This document shows positions 13,297-38,302 of a stretch of 38,302 nt of DNA, piece by piece. A program made the position numbers and the translations under genes. Numbering within the stretch: the stretch's first letter is position 1; each line of letters begins with the position of its first letter. This DNA is from Krasilnikovozyma curviuscula (Eukaryota; Basidiomycota; Tremellomycetes; Cystofilobasidiales; Mrakiaceae): contig MVAQ01000213.1 in assembly GCA_014825775.1 (NCBI GenBank), forward strand, positions 1 through 38,302, written 5' to 3'. The notes under the pieces are model-generated. The model did not search any database. It was not told the DNA's origin and saw nothing but the letters and a program-made list of their open reading frames with translations.

Positions 13297-16200
13297 TTAC
13301 CAGAACTTCTTCTTTCCGAAGCACCGATCAACGCTCTCACTGAGAGTAGAAATCCACACTGACGTTAGCGATCTAAGAAAGATGGGACGAGAGAAATGAA
13401 AATGACTCACGCGTTGCTGGAGAGGGTTGGGGAATGCGAAGATCACATGCGACAGTCAGTTGCGAAGACGGTGTTGGGAAGAAACAGCAAACTTACTTGA
13501 AGAAATAGTTCGGCATCTTGATACTCTTCCCTGCTGAGAACGCTACGAAGATAAAAAGAAGGTTAAGGTTCCAACCAGCATCAGCTGCAGCTCCCAACAA
13601 GAAAGCGTATGCTTTCCAGATTCTGTGCTTGTAGCGCATGAGGTAGAAGTTAATGAAGACTCCGAGGATAACTTTAGTGAATGGGCCAGTAGATAAGAAG
13701 CCTCGGAACTAGGATAGAGAGAGCTCATCAGCGTCTTGGGACTGCCCAAGAAGAAATCTCACAGGCGCCCGAAAAAGATTGAGGACAACTCACTTGCGCG
13801 GCGCTGGCGAAGAAGATTGTTGGGTTCAACAGATCAATTCCCTTGTGAGGCCATTTTTTGTGAAGCAGCCAGACAAACACTGGGACGACAGCTCCAGCTA
13901 AGAATCCATATAGTAGTGGTGTGTAGAAACCGCTCGCGTAAAGCCTGGCGGGACCAATAAGCGCGTATTCAACTGCTTCAGTATTATAGTTCAGAGCATC
14001 TTGGCCACTCCATTGACCCGCTGTAAGAGGGGTATAGAGGGGGAAATGTAGAGACGGGAGGGGGGAAAGTGGTTAAAGCAGCGTTAGTTTCAGAAGCTGG
14101 TTTTCAACGACGAAAGAGGTATCACTTACCAGGATCTACTTCCGTTTGGTCCAGGTAAGATCTGTTAATGGAGTTATCATCAGTAATGTTAACCGAACGA
14201 TCTAGTGAGTTGAGTGATCATTACTAACCTCTTTGTATCAATAACCCAGCGTATGACACCAACGTTGATTGGCACACCGATAAGGACACCCCACATCTGT
14301 GTGAAGAACACTTCTCTCATGTTAATATGCATGTAGAGGCCCTAGAAGAATGCAAATCAGTCATTGTTTCTACACAGCGCGAACAGGTGTACACTCACCA
14401 TCTTTTGATCTTGGAGCATGGTCTGAGCCTTGTACCAGCAATCGCCGGAAAGAACTCTATAAACGAGGGAGCCCACTGGATGCCTACTTGCCCTGATGAG
14501 GGCGAGAATTTGTGGTCATATCAGCTTCAAGACGTGATATGAAAACAATCAGAGACCCAAGAACGGACCCCTTAGCATTGATCATGTAGCCGTAGAAAAG
14601 CTCGTTGATTATTCCTAGCTGAGTTGTATAGTTGGAGATGGAATAAATCCAGGCCATAGGAATGAGAGTGATGCCGCCGATGATCAAACCTACTATGACA
14701 GTGTACCAAGGAAGATAAAGATCTTCCGTGTACACCAGTGCAAAGAAAACTCCCAGAGAAATGATCTGATAGTTCGAGGAGTTAGGACGTTGTAGCTGGT
14801 GGAGAAATTCAACGACATAGCTCACGAAGACAATGCCAAACCACCAGCCAGGAATGTCTCCGTTTGGTCCATACTGCTCCATCATCTTATTCAACTTATC
14901 CTTCCTGACCTCCTTACGTCTCAGCAAGATATTTTTGACTACACCATAGATTTTGGGACCTCGAGTCAAGCCAATGAAGACGAAAGCACTGGCAAAATCA
15001 AGAGACATCAGCCATCAGTGTTCCTTGACATTTACATGCTTGGCATGAATTACCTGACAAAAGAAGCGTAAAAAAACCAGTTATACCTACAGAAAGGTTC
15101 TCGAGGTTAGCTGAGGTTTAAGAGGGCTCAACAAGACTCAAAACACTCACCAGAGCGACTGCGCGCTGATTCTTGGGAGGCCATAGATGGCATACGCGGT
15201 CTCGTTGAACTGTCCATTAGGCAGAACCAGAGCTCTGTAAGGATATAAGGTGCCATTCTTTAGGTAAATTTTGTTGGTCATGATCGGATAAACGTCGGTT
15301 GATCCCAGCCGTCCGAAGTAAAACACTGCGCGCCAACCGACCAGAAATCAGCCTGATTAGGCTTCAAGAAAGAGATGATGAAACAAGCTTACATGGAATC
15401 AGAATCCAAGCTGATAGAGCGTACCCAGAGAACTGAAGGACCTGGGACCACCAAGGGGAAAGGACAACTGAGGAGGTGATGTTAGACCAATCAAGTGTGA
15501 TGTTCAGGAAACCCATTCCTCCGATACCACCACCCACAAAGCTGGCTGCTGGTGAGCGATGTCCAGCAGCCCAACAGATAATTGATAGCGAAGAGAGCAT
15601 CGGCATCATGTACGCTGGCAAAAATTCCCAGCTGAGGAAAGAAATGCGACATGGTCAGGAAACAGGCATCGCACTATAGCTATCCAGCGAAGTTAGTCAC
15701 CAAAACATTCCAACGAGGACGATCCAGAACCATCTCATCTGTCTTTTAGCAGTCTTCGCGTCTGCCTTCTTGTTCTCATACATCGTCTTGAACAAGTTGG
15801 CGTTCATCAGTGAGTTCTGCCAAACGAACTCAGGGTCGTAGAGGACGAAGTGACGGGCAAATCCAGCGTAGGAGTAGCCAATACCGATGGTGCTCCACAT
15901 AAGGAACATCTTGGAGAGGTAGAAATATCAGGAAATTACTGGAGCGGCTGGTACACACAGGGAGAAAGCAAGGCTTACCGCTGCTAGTGGATTCATCCTC
16001 TGACCCCAGTACAAGTCCTTGACTACAACGACTACTTCAGCAAAGTTCGCATTCCCTCCTATTAAAAGTGATGTTTTGAAAAGTTCAGAGATCCAGAAGG
16101 CGAGGGATGCCTACTGTGAAGCAAATTGAAGGCGATAAAGAGCTGTAGCGGGACTGACCTGCAGATGCCGTCAAAGTGACAAGAACATGCTCCTTCAGTT

Positions 16201-32536: not shown

Positions 32537-35474
32537 ATGGCAGAGGATGGTAGCAACGAGATGGCTATCGATGGCACTGCAGATCATGAGAATGAGCTTG
32601 GTGAGCTGTTCGCTCCTAACGTTGAAGCTCTAATACATCAAAATAACTGAATTCGTACGTCGACGCCATTCATTTTTCGACGTCTCCACCAAGCAGGCCG
32701 TCCTCAAGTCAATAGTAGCCATGCATCCGGTACTCAGGGACAGATATCTTCTCTTTCTGGACCAGACCAAAAGTCTATCTCGTCTTCTGGAGAAAACGAA
32801 CCTGCTTCTTCAGCGTTTCAAATAGTTCCCTCTGGAATCGCTGCAGCTGAAGGGCCACCAGTACTAAGTTAGATCAGGTTGTTACCTTCTTTTTATCATA
32901 TGTACACTAACGTAGGTCTATCTGAATTTTATCTGCCTTTAGGTTTCGTTGAATCCTCTGAAATTCCAACCTGGGCGTCAAGTAATCAACAACATCCTCC
33001 TCAGATCTTCTCTAGCCAATCTTCGATGAATGTTTCACAAGTTCCCCAGCCTCAATCTACTAGTCCAGCCATCAAACGCAACCGGGCCTGTTTACAGTGC
33101 TCAAGATCCAAGCAACGATGTTCTGGGCCTATCGGGGCAGCTGCTGCTGGAGGATGCGAACGATGTCTCGGCCGGACGGAGAGTGGTCTCTCTAGGTGTA
33201 GTTTCTTAGACGAACCTCTAGAGGAAACTGTTTCTTCTTCAGTTCGTCGTTCAAGGAAGAGAAAGACTGACTCCGAAGAAGGACACGGAGCACCTTCCTC
33301 TCGAATTCATCTCGAATCAGAATCAGCTCTAGTGCTTCCACAGGATCACATTGGCTCGCCACAACAGAACATACATGACTCCAGTAACGGCTCATCAGCT
33401 TCTCAATCTCAGGAGCCAGCCAGACCTAGAATGGCTCCACGCGCCTGTGTGTTGTGTCGTCGAGGGAAGATCAGGTGTGAGGGATTGACAGCCAGCAGAG
33501 CCAGCGGTGGTTGTGTGAAATGCCGAAGGTTTCAAGAGTCATGCTCGTTTCTTAACTCGGAATGGGACGGTGCGATCGAACCGACGCCAACAATCCGGAA
33601 GAAACGTGAAAGAAACACTAAAGCAACTTCCGCCAACGCCGGCAACCACATAGAAGAAGGAGATGATCATGGTGATAATGAAGATGATGATGAGGATGGA
33701 CAGCAATCGTTCCCGCCGGGTGATCAGCGTCATGCTATCGCTTCGTCAATTCCAGTCTGGACAACTGCGATGCCGACCCTTCAACAGTCATTTCAGCTTC
33801 AGCACCCACCACAACTGCAACCTAATCTTCCTCAGATATTACTACAACCTCAACGGCCACCTATGCAACAGCTAGATCAGACCGGTCCTTCCTTGCTAAC
33901 ACCGCAGCAATACCCCCAGCCACAATCAACGACACCAGCCAAAGTACAACAGAAGACGAACCACACAAAATCAATTCCCTCGGCCACAGGTAAAGGATCG
34001 GGTACTTCAGTTCCTGCTGGATCCCAAGCTGAATCTGTTGCTGGTCAAAAAGTTGCGCCGAAAGCCTGCACAATGTGCAGACAAGCTAAAGTCAGGTGTG
34101 ATGGCTTGGTCCTGAGTAGGGCCAACGGCGGATGTACGAAGTGTCTGAGAGCAATTGTGCCTAGCAGATGCTCTCTTCTTGATCCTCAGTGGGATGACGC
34201 TGTCGAGCCTCGACGCGATCCTCCTCCTTCAAAGCAGTCCAAGGCAGGCACTGCAGTTCCAAAGAAAGCTGCGTGTGAAGGCTGCCGGGCTGGAAAGGAT
34301 AAATGTGAGAAGATAGAGGGTCAAGAATCCTGTACAAAGTGCGTGGAGAAGAATATCGGCTGCTCTCTTTCAAGCACCCACGCGACCAGCGCCCCGCCTG
34401 TCCTATCTGCAACTGGTCACCTAGCACCCTCCAACTCAACTCACGTATCAGACTATCCGCTGGAGCGCGTTGCAGAAGAGAACAGTGCTGCTACTACTAC
34501 TACTACTAAGCCCCCCTCTGGGTTCTCTCAAGAGTTCACGAGCCAAGCCCCGGCATCGTTACCTACAAGGTCTTCTGCACAACTACCATCACCTCCATTC
34601 ACGACTTCAACCGTCTCTCGTAGCTCGAGCAGTCAGGGACTGTATACAACAGTACCTTTTGGACAAGCTTCAACCTATATTTTACCAACGTCTCAACATC
34701 AACATCATCAGAACGCCCCATTCGACCCACTATACTCGTATCAACCAAACTCCAATGGGGCTAACCATCCCCCACGATACGCACCGCTACCGCCAACTCA
34801 AAGTTATTCGCAATACCCTCCTCCTCTTGCTCAGCAGCACTCCCATTATCAACCCCCTCAGCAACAACCACATTACCAAATGCAACAGCAGCAACAGGAC
34901 CTTCACCGTCAATCTCAATCTCCGTACATTCAGTCATCACCACACTTCCAACACCAGCCGCTCGGCTACTTGCAACAGCAACAGCAGTCTGCTGGTTCCA
35001 GTAGTAGCAGTCATTCTCACCCAATGCCTCCTCCACCTCATCCTAACCCAATGTCCCCGCATTTGATGTCTCCTCGCTCTCCTATGCTTCCGCCACCACC
35101 ACCACCTCCCCAGCAGCACGGTGGGCATTACCGATCGCCTTCGTTGTCTCGAGACGGGTCTACTTCATCAATCAGCCAAGATCTTCAACAGCGGTATGTC
35201 CTTCTTGCGTCTCCTCTTCTTCTTAAACTCCTCCAAGCTGACACCCTTGAGCTTTGGTGGCTTCAGGCTGGATAAATCAGACCACTTCATTCAATCGCTG
35301 CAGAAATCGAACCACGAGCTAATACAAGACATTCAGATGAAGTCGCACAGGATCCAGTTCCTGGAGTCTGTCCTCCGAGAGGCTGGGATCGCTCTGGATG
35401 AGAGTCGGTTCAGTACATCTATGGGCAGTGGGGGAGGTGGGGCGATAGTGACTGGGCAACAACCACCGCAATAG
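32537..35474 (+). CDS. Regulator with four Zn(II)2Cys6 clusters and a Gln/Pro-rich region
   Basis: Four exons (32537-32600, 32697-32867, 32943-35193, 35267-35474) join in frame to 897 residues. Four separate zinc-cluster motifs are visible, each C-x2-C-x6-C-x(8-11)-C-x2-C-x(6-10)-C. Cluster 1 begins at residue ~128 (ACLQCSRSKQRC), cluster 2 at ~247 (ACVLCRRGKIRC), cluster 3 at ~454 (ACTMCRQAKVRC) and cluster 4 at ~523 (ACEGCRAGKDKC). Clusters 2-4 have canonical spacing; cluster 1 has ten residues before its last Cys. Residues ~280-440 and 560-820 are Gln/Pro/Ser-rich. They include poly-Thr, poly-Gln and poly-Pro runs typical of activation or low-complexity regions. The C-terminus has a predicted coiled coil (KSDHFIQSLQKSNHELIQDI onward), a possible dimerisation helix. 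I saw no fungal-specific transcription factor middle domain. Fungal zinc-cluster regulators normally carry one cluster, so this is unusual; nuclear DNA binding is inferred from the motif. An in-frame alternative acceptor at 32915 would add nine residues. Confidence 0.9.
34491..34508 (+). repeat. (CTA)6 trinucleotide repeat inside the zinc regulator
   Basis: Six perfect CTA units are read in the ACT frame as part of a poly-Thr run. It is a candidate for length variation between strains. Confidence 0.85.
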
Positions 35475-36189
35475 GAGTACAGTCCTATTTGAGGTGGTTA
35501 TTGGTATGGTGCTGTAGATATTGATCCCTCTCTTGGAGGCTCTGGGGGACACTCAGCCTAGAACTGTTCGCCTTTTTTATTTGCTCTAGGATAGATGTAA
35601 ATAGACAGCGCCTTAAATAAGCTTTGAACATTGAGATTGCCTGTGGTGTATCAATTTTGTTTTGTGCTTTGGTGAAAGATAACTAAGAATGGGTCGCTGA
35701 AAGGTCGTGGCGACTGTCGAGAAATCCAGCTCTTCGTCACGACCTGTGCTTTCGACAAAGTTAGCCACTTTGCAAGGACAACCGTGGGATGAAATTCACA
35801 CTTTCATGAAAGATACATGTATTCAAGGTACAAGTAGCCCTAGAACAACAACGACGCTGGAAACGCAACATCGCGTTGCAGCGACTTTTTCTCCGACTTT
35901 GCCTTCTGACCAAGGCTTAGCATTGGGCAAGCGACGTACAGGATCACTTGTTTTGATTCCTATCTCTTGCAAAGCTCTGGTCACATCACAGCATCGCAGA
36001 TGGAAGGCTGTCGTGTAGCATTGTTACTCGCTCGCGAGCGTTCCACGGCGGCCCACTACTGACTCCATTACATTTTTAATCAGCCCTTTCAACCTCGATA
36101 GCTCTTCTCCTATATTTCGGATTGGATGATACCCAACCCCCTGTAAGAACTTATTAAAAACAACAGGTAGCGCCATCTCGAACAGCAGG
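35475..36189. other. Intergenic region with a 104-codon open stretch lacking an ATG
   Basis: The 3' UTR of the zinc regulator lies first. From 35707 to 36018 a plus-strand frame stays open (VATVEKSSSSSRPVLSTKLA and onward) but begins with GTG, has no upstream ATG or acceptor I trust, and shows no domain. I do not call it a gene. The part from about 36020 is the leader of the MFS gene. Confidence 0.35.
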
Positions 36190-38302
36190 ATGTCGGCTGC
36201 CCCACCAAGAAAAGACTTCGACTGCAGCAAAGGGGCTTCATCCGAAATCGTGTCTGTCCAACCTGTCGATCCAGACGAATCCACCTTACTTCTCCCTAGT
36301 TCATCGACTTCATACTCCAAATCGCCCACTCGTTCAACCCACTCGAATCAGAGAAGACAGGGCAGGGAGGCCTATCATCGATTGCTGGCGAGCGTGTGCC
36401 TGACTGCGGTCGCCATGAGTTTTACAACTTCAACTCTCATGTTCTCGATCAGGACCCTAGCATGTCAGGAGTACTATGAAGTGAATGAGCCGTATGACGG
36501 TGTGGGCGACAAGTGTGCAGTGAGAGAGATCGAGTCGAGTTTTGCGAAGAGCATCGCTTGGTTGGCGACTTTGATCAGAATTGGTGAGTTCTGTCGCTTT
36601 CGTGGAAGGTCTCCAAAGAAAACTTACTCTCAGCTGGCGTGTTCAACATCTTCGTAACAAACTGGATGATTAAGCGCTTTGGAGTGAAAGTTGCGTGAGT
36701 AGTGTCCTCCTTCGACCTTCTTTCCAAACTCTGCTTTCTAATAGACATAAACAACCAGGATGTTGAACCAAACACTTTGGCCCTGTCTTCGGACGGTCCT
36801 GCAACTCTTCGCTCTCTCCATCGGAGGTCGCGACGGTCGCATTCTAATCATCAGTTCGCACTTCTTCAACGTCCTCGGCTCGACATATGGATGGCATCTT
36901 GCTACCACCACATTCATTACGGAGGTGATTAAAGAAAAGAAGGAACATACACCGGCGTTTGGTCTCACCCATGGGTTGACTTTGGCGTGTGAGTCTTTGT
37001 CGAGAAATGGAGCAACTTGCTCATCATGAGCTTTCCACAAACTTATTTTCCATTATTGCGCAGGCATGTCGATTGCTCTATCACTAGGAGGAGCCATTGG
37101 AGATCGATATGGCTTATCGTCACCCTTTAAAGTGGAGATCTGTCTCCTCGTGATCACGACTGTCTTCTCCTTCTTCGCCCTCCCCCTCCCCTTAGTACAT
37201 CAACCATCTCCCGCCCTGTCCATAGAGATAACAGCAATATCTAAATCAGTGTTACCATCTTCTCCCGTTGGCATGTGGTTCAAAAGTGTATTGAGTACGT
37301 TTACGGAACCCATCAAAGTTTTCGGACCGCAAAAGGTTGTGAGAGATGGGATTGAGAAAAGGCATCTGGGCCTGATGTTTCTTGGAATTGGTGAGTCATC
37401 TAAAAACAATTATTCTGATGTTCATAGCCTTATTTTTAGCTTTCGATTGATGTTGGATGCTGCCGCCAGGTAATCTCATCGTCCACTTCTCAGTTTCCTA
37501 TGTTCATTCGATGTTAGCAATGACCGCGGTAGCTCAATTTGGATTCAAGCCTACCCAAGTAAGCTACTATATAATACATAGACCCCCCACCAAAGATTAC
37601 TCACACACGACTCCTCTCACAGTCTGGCTACTTGTTCACGATCCAGCTCTTCCTCGCCGGGATTTACATAACTTTCATTTTCCGCCCCGTCATCTCTTAT
37701 GGCAGAAAATCGTTCGTCTCATCGTCCTCTTCTCAAGATCTATCTACAGAAAATTACCACCACCAACAGGCGAACCACGACGAGGAATACCTCACCTCCT
37801 CCATTGTCCTCGAAACACCCGACACAATCCCCTCCGAGACGGACACAAACCATGGATCTGGGTTTGACCTGATCTACCTCAAAGTAGAGACCTTCATTCA
37901 CTGCGCGCTGGTGCTGGGAATTGGGTGTAGTTGGAGTGGTTGGAACATGTACGTTTGGGCGAGTGCGATCAGCTTGACAACTGGCGGGAGCTCCATTCTC
38001 AAAGGCACGTTTTTTGCTCTTCAGCTTTTGTTTGTGTACTGGATATCTGCTAATGTGATGAATGATACAGGCATAGTGTTGGAAATGGTCCCACCGCTCA
38101 AGAAGTCGGATGCGTTGAGTGCGCTGTACTTGGCCGAAACACTCAGTGGGATGTGAGTTTCTCTCTCTGTCCATCTTGATGGCATTGCCCTGTGAACTGT
38201 AACTAATTTTGAGTGACAGAGCTTCAGCGAATGTCTTCGGGTTGTTGTTTGCGCACTTCGCAGAATCGAGCTCGTCAAACTTGACGTATTTTTGCGCTGG
38301 TG
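36190..38302 (+). CDS. Major facilitator superfamily transporter, 3' end outside window
   Basis: Exons are 36190-36583, 36634-36694, 36759-36988, 37064-37390, 37470-37558, 37623-38004 (or through to 38152), 38071-38152, and 38220 to the window end, where the frame is still open. The N-terminus is about 70 residues of cytosolic sequence with an ESTLLLPSSS motif. Then come the first membrane segment (LLASVCLTAVAMSFTTSTLM), a TM2-3 loop (WMIKRFGVKVAM), and GGAIGDRYGLSSPF, which resembles the MFS motif with Asp-Arg-x-Gly. Also present are a long central cytosolic loop (residues rich in Ser, Glu and His around SSSSSQDLSTENYHHQQANH) and second-half helices (IHCALVLGIGCSWSGWNMYV, ASANVFGLLFAHF). Pattern and topology are those of 12-TM fungal MFS proteins; the substrate cannot be told. 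The sixth exon contains a possible in-frame GC-AG intron (38005-38070). Confidence 0.83.

Follow-up and report, generated by a model that had tools for sequence, protein, structure and literature searches.

A single gene of the basidiomycete Krasilnikovozyma curviuscula (32537..35474, forward strand) encodes a protein of 897 amino acids that carries four Zn2Cys6 clusters, and its sequence points, with a probability of roughly 0.57, to a multivalent Zn2Cys6 (Gal4-type) transcription regulator and putative DNA binder. The location of all four clusters in one uninterrupted exon is real and was confirmed. Positions refer to the window, which is the whole stretch of DNA that was analysed (38,302 nucleotides). 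Zn2Cys6 proteins make up one of the largest regulator classes in fungi; they usually carry a single cluster, and their known specificity mostly concerns paired half-sites that are read by dimers. With four clusters instead of the usual one, the present protein may grip DNA at several points simultaneously. The four-cluster chain is an uncommon variant inside the known Zn2Cys6 class.

Gene Model and Open Reading Frame

Splice-site and frame analysis gave a model with an ATG at 32537, exons at 32537-32600, 32697-32867, 32943-35193, and 35267-35474 on the forward strand (stop codon included, ending at 35474), and GT-AG introns at 32601-32696, 32868-32942, and 35194-35266. Its translation comprises exactly 897 residues, which is the chain length that the first-pass annotation, made from the DNA letters, had claimed for this interval. 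For intron 2, four alternative choices likewise preserve the frame and alter only the part of the protein before cluster 1. Exon 3 (32943..35193) contains the four clusters in a single open frame, which runs from stop to stop over 32873-35275 (800 codons) and has a chance probability of about 4e-15 at the local base composition. The frameshift against which that annotation had warned was not seen, and the clusters share the 800-codon frame.

Codon usage was scored after training on 17 long frames taken from other loci (6169 codons). The score was positive in frame for exons 1 and 2 and ranged from 0.114 to 0.172 in the cluster frame for the start of exon 3, the three linkers, and the tail. The linkers individually scored 0.139, 0.132, and 0.172, with another frame slightly above the cluster frame in the short third linker (0.217 versus 0.172). 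Over clusters 1-4, the true frame scored -0.114, -0.097, -0.017, and -0.004, and some other frame or strand outscored it in each of clusters 1-3 and, by 0.001, in cluster 4. Positive in the linkers and not in the clusters, the score is evidence that the linkers are coding but carries no information about the clusters. It was about zero for exon 4 (-0.02) and negative in every frame for introns 1 and 2 and the tested flanks, and two intron 3 frames lay slightly above zero (0.08).

Elsewhere in the window, downstream frames at 36130-38153 (forward strand) resemble a multi-spanning membrane protein, one of them with a weak match to MFS_1 (15.5 bits, short of its 33.4-bit cut-off), and an OPT oligopeptide transporter exon lies at 14487-15014 on the reverse strand (36.6 bits, cut-off 25.8).

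Four Zinc Clusters in One Chain

The clusters lie on the forward strand and were scored against the Pfam Zn_clus model (PF00172), whose curated cut-off is 21 bits. Cluster 1 (33089..33199) has the pattern C-x2-C-x6-C-x11-C-x2-C-x10-C and scores 22.6 bits, barely passing the cut-off (1.6 bits above); cluster 2 (33446..33544; C-x2-C-x6-C-x11-C-x2-C-x6-C) scores 26.1 bits, cluster 3 (34067..34171; C-x2-C-x6-C-x11-C-x2-C-x8-C) 24.9 bits, and cluster 4 (34274..34363; C-x2-C-x6-C-x8-C-x2-C-x6-C), which is of separate origin, 25.4 bits. In the 800-aa frame, Zn_clus was matched by four stretches with an E-value of 1.5e-13, and each cluster also exceeded the cut-off when it was scanned alone (4/4). The first-pass annotation had described four separate, intact six-cysteine clusters in a single chain and had proposed a PF00172 search as the check; the four Zn_clus domains returned by that search, at 22.6-26.1 bits, bear the description out, and all of the 24 cysteines in the protein fall inside the clusters. 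Shuffling the protein 20,000 times produced the six-cysteine pattern on average 0.00005 times per sequence, against four occurrences in the actual protein. The four clusters are spread over 425 residues, and the linkers measure 82, 174, and 34 residues, in good agreement with the earlier estimates of about 85, 175, and 35.

PF00172 was the only Pfam family to pass its cut-off in the protein. Cluster 3, alone among the clusters, gave a sub-threshold match to DUF3716 (PF12511; 12.3 bits, cut-off 22) at 34043-34213 on the forward strand. DUF3716 is a family of unknown function that may be distantly related to zinc clusters; a link to it was considered on this weak match and dropped. A genome search for the family was silent, but so were the control genomes, and the silence is no evidence that the genome lacks it.

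Apart from the cysteine columns, the alignment of the four clusters has just three invariant positions: an A, a K, and an S. Cluster 1 has a serine at the first loop position, where Gal4 has a backbone-contacting arginine. The loop lysine is kept in all four clusters and aligns, in sequence only, with its counterparts in Leu3, AlcR, and Hap1; we take it to be the equivalent of the CGG-reading lysine of Gal4. According to PMC5559640, a lysine of Gal4 contacts adjacent guanines.

Regions outside the Clusters

A tail, SFLNSEWDGAIEP, follows cluster 2 (33545..33583, forward strand) and is repeated in the alignments behind cluster 3 as SLLDPQWDDAVEP (34172..34210, forward strand). The copied unit of clusters 2 and 3 thus takes in 13 residues of the form S-F/L-L-N/D-x2-W-D-x-A-I/V-E-P, of which cluster 1 retains just the beginning (SFLD). 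Direct reading of the sequence located the basic stretches RRSRKRKT after cluster 1 (33245..33268) and IRKKRERNTK after cluster 2 (33593..33622), both on the forward strand; the former may serve nuclear import or backbone contact. The longest linker contains an acidic run, EEGDDHGDNEDDDEDG, at 33653-33700 (forward strand), followed by a Q/P-rich stretch, and the two might form an extra activation region.

Behind cluster 4, a low-complexity tail was delimited by composition (34385..35193, forward strand); residues 560-830 consist of 56% Q/P/S/H, no Pfam domain was found in 34373-35191 at E-values up to 1, and this tail may have a role in activation. Heptad analysis was confined to proline-free windows with at most one glycine (43 of the 870 windows of 28 residues). 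The best permitted window, far from the clusters at residues 824-868 (35177..35384, forward strand), marks a possible coiled coil split by intron 3. Of 1000 shuffles, 336 reached its score with 21-residue windows, 69 with 28-residue windows, and 31 with 35-residue windows. Support for the C-terminal coiled coil of the first-pass annotation is thus modest. The same annotation could see no middle homology region. This agrees with the absence of Fungal_trans (PF04082) from the 800-aa frame, the tail, and exon 4 in the Pfam search, and with a genome search, the sole scan to cover exons 1 and 2 (79 residues), in which none of 79 PF04082 matches lay on the contig of this gene (C126).

Occurrence of Multiple Clusters in the Genome

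The genome yielded 51 Zn_clus matches at E <= 0.001, which were grouped by position into 48 loci, and three loci (this gene, C211, and C237) had two matches. Of the 47 other loci, 27 were rescanned together with 3.5 kb of flanking sequence in either direction, or less near a contig end, with a model built from 13 clusters of the same genome. C211 and C237 each proved to have two adjacent clusters in one frame, and the other 25 gave one main match each (13.7 to 49.4 bits), accompanied in five of them by a second weak match (8.7-11.2 bits) on the opposite strand, in a different frame, or about 3 kb away. With this rather insensitive model, none of the 27 loci covered, out of 47, showed three or more clusters above 8 bits. 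On the present gene, the model gave 9.9, 12.5, and 15.2 bits for clusters 1, 3, and 4 and less than 8 for cluster 2; it is thus insensitive to clusters of this kind, and weak additional clusters may exist elsewhere. C332 and C365, which were not among the 27, have one cluster each by pattern, and the remaining 18 loci are represented by the profile search alone. The genes at C211 and C237 are paralogous (64% identical over 97 aa) and make up a separate two-cluster family. At both (C211, about 10.7-10.9 kb, L015:3336-3695; C237, about 18.6-18.9 kb, L017:3309-3638), the clusters are joined by a short basic linker.

Origin and Selection of the Clusters

Pairwise comparisons against 500 cysteine-preserving shuffles gave z scores of 14.9 for clusters 2 and 3, 7.3 for clusters 1 and 2, and 7.0 for clusters 1 and 3, whereas cluster 4 reached 0.9, 2.5, and 2.4 against clusters 1, 2, and 3. 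Searched against all 387 contigs of the genome (22.4 Mb), clusters 1, 2, and 3 each recovered themselves and only the other two, with three candidates scored per query. With cluster 2 as query, the E-values were 4.4e-16 for cluster 3 and 1.9e-4 for cluster 1; with cluster 3 as query, they were 8.4e-16 for cluster 2 and 8.5e-6 for cluster 1. The cluster 4 query, for which a single candidate was scored, recovered only itself. With so few first-pass candidates (three, three, three, and one), a distant relative of the clusters was possibly overlooked. The z scores and genome searches together indicate that clusters 1-3 form one internally duplicated family and that cluster 4 came from another source; by sequence likeness, clusters 1, 2, and 3 are old internal copies. 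The internal duplication proposed in the first-pass annotation is thereby supported, except that it involves three clusters (1, 2, and 3) and not two, and the signature given there for clusters 2 and 3, GL-x4-R-A-x-GGC, has to be corrected to GL-x3-R-A-x-GGC.

Between clusters 2 and 3, silent sites are saturated: over 52 codons, pS is 0.81 and pN 0.29, and when the gaps are placed differently, the values are 0.75 and 0.31 over 39 codons. The remaining five cluster pairs show pS of 0.75-1.02 and pN of 0.43-0.59 over 36-41 codons. Since the pN of cluster 1 against clusters 2 and 3 (0.43 and 0.47) is hardly below that of pairs with cluster 4 (0.48-0.59), which share just the cluster fold, the rate test is informative for clusters 2 and 3 and not for cluster 1. 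Saturated silent change combined with low replacement change marks the duplication of clusters 2 and 3 as old and probably maintained by selection, so that decay of these two clusters seems unlikely; the test stands in weakly for an ortholog comparison.

Searches of a large protein collection returned 7994 candidates for residues 100-610, none at E <= 0.001, and 57 and 86 candidates for residues 446-560 and 822-892, respectively, none at E <= 1. No homolog was confirmed among 19 stretches from viral contigs or 102 from prokaryote genome contigs. Because the latter two sets are non-fungal and the fungal share of the protein collection is uncertain, these failed searches say little about orthologs. 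AlphaFold models of clusters 3-4 alone (mean pLDDT 51) and of cluster 3 supplied with an alignment made from the remaining clusters (mean pLDDT 64) were both of low confidence and too poor for a fold search.

Comparison with Known Zinc Cluster Proteins

Among solved structures, the best match of cluster 3 is Hap1/Cyp1 (E 0.00057), in an alignment that extends past the last cysteine into residues that include a W in Hap1 as well; cluster 4 aligns best with Leu3 (E 0.0015). The best solved match for cluster 2 is AlcR, at a weak E of 0.06, and cluster 1 matched no solved zinc cluster at E-values up to 10. A long loop between the third and fourth cysteines is common to AlcR and the present protein (16 residues in the weak AlcR alignment, 11 here), as are, for both AlcR and TerR, basic residues preceding the cluster. 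AlcR and TerR have one cluster per chain. These Aspergillus Zn2Cys6 proteins bind as monomers, according to PMC4360782.

The cluster pattern and the loop lysine are shared with the single-cluster activators Gal4, Hap1/Cyp1, and Leu3. In contrast to these, the present protein has four clusters, so that it departs from the single cluster of the classical Gal4 type, no middle homology region was found in it, and its sole candidate coiled coil is far C-terminal instead of directly behind a cluster. Dual-specificity transcription factors also have several DNA-binding domains per chain; they are defined, in PMC5415576, by DNA-binding domains of different classes. Here, however, all four domains belong to one class (PF00172) and no other family exceeds its cut-off, and membership in that group was rejected.

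Pfam lists architectures that have several Zn_clus domains. Two-cluster proteins appear in the literature: PoZCP55, one of the 66 zinc cluster genes in Pleurotus ostreatus, is named with two clusters and septin domains (PMC7295025), and an Alternaria factor with two clusters is mentioned (PMC10305253). The present chain has multiple clusters in common with them, with four over 425 residues against two. For Cryptococcus neoformans, PMC4391232 assigns a Zn2-Cys6 domain to 78 of 178 factors and more than two factor domains, of types unspecified there, to several factors. Phrase searches of the open literature, a limited test, found no Zn2Cys6 protein with three or four clusters; the matches to 'four Zn2Cys6' concerned four genes or four factors and not one protein.

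Possible Mode of DNA Recognition

A multivalent DNA binder is suggested by the loop lysine and the matches to solved clusters. In the proposed mechanism, each cluster would fold around two zinc ions and use its conserved lysine to touch a CGG-like half-site, in roughly the manner of the AlcR and TerR clusters, which bind as monomers. The long flexible linkers could then allow one chain to hold several half-sites whose spacing is not fixed. Two such chains might be paired by the helix at the C terminus, and the tail rich in Q/P/S/H might attract the transcription machinery. Where a promoter offers many half-sites, individually weak contacts would sum to tight binding. The reading of a half-site array by one chain or by a dimer would fit the anatomy of the protein. 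More specifically, and only tentatively, a single chain with three duplicated AlcR-like monomer-binding clusters and an unrelated fourth may act as an array reader that counts CGG-like half-sites and does not recognize a fixed pair. Such an array-counting recognition mode for Zn2Cys6 proteins was not met in the portions of PMC5415576, PMC5559640, and PMC4360782 consulted. The kilobase upstream of the gene is not enriched in CGG/CCG (23 versus 21.2 expected; 7 pairs versus 7.0), as these counts were reached by 182 of 500 shuffles for single sites and by 241 of 500 for paired sites, and it thus gives no sign of self-regulation through a site array. This tells against the multivalent reading, as do the low-confidence models, the restriction of the rate test to clusters 2 and 3, and three features of cluster 1: its marginal score, its lack of a solved match, and the serine in its loop.

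In a somewhat improbable alternative, just one cluster, most likely cluster 4, would bind DNA, and clusters 1-3 would be a repeated zinc module that binds proteins or RNA. The shorter loop, separate origin, and Leu3 match of cluster 4 are consistent with this division, the 11-residue loop of clusters 1-3 and the W-D-x-A-I/V-E-P tail of clusters 2 and 3 offer possible interaction surfaces, and no solved cluster is matched by cluster 1. However, clusters 1-3 retain the loop lysine, the alignment of cluster 3 with Hap1/Cyp1 includes the residues with W behind the last cysteine, and a long loop is also present in AlcR, which binds DNA.

Two further explanations would remove the four-cluster protein itself. 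The long exon could represent several transcripts or linkers that are spliced out, so that no protein holds all four clusters. The low complexity of the linkers would allow this, as would the codon score over the clusters, which is not positive in the true frame and is higher in other frames or strands; the single 800-codon frame, hardly expected by chance, and the coding scores of every linker in the cluster frame make it very unlikely. Even less credit is given to a decaying or non-functional gene: no relative was found that shows conservation, in collections that probably hold few fungal sequences, but the frame is open, the 24 cysteines are intact, and the replacement rate between clusters 2 and 3 is low. 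The four-cluster chain is a natural test of whether Zn2Cys6 domains work in series, like C2H2 fingers, and it also lets the divergence of the copies in specificity be followed.
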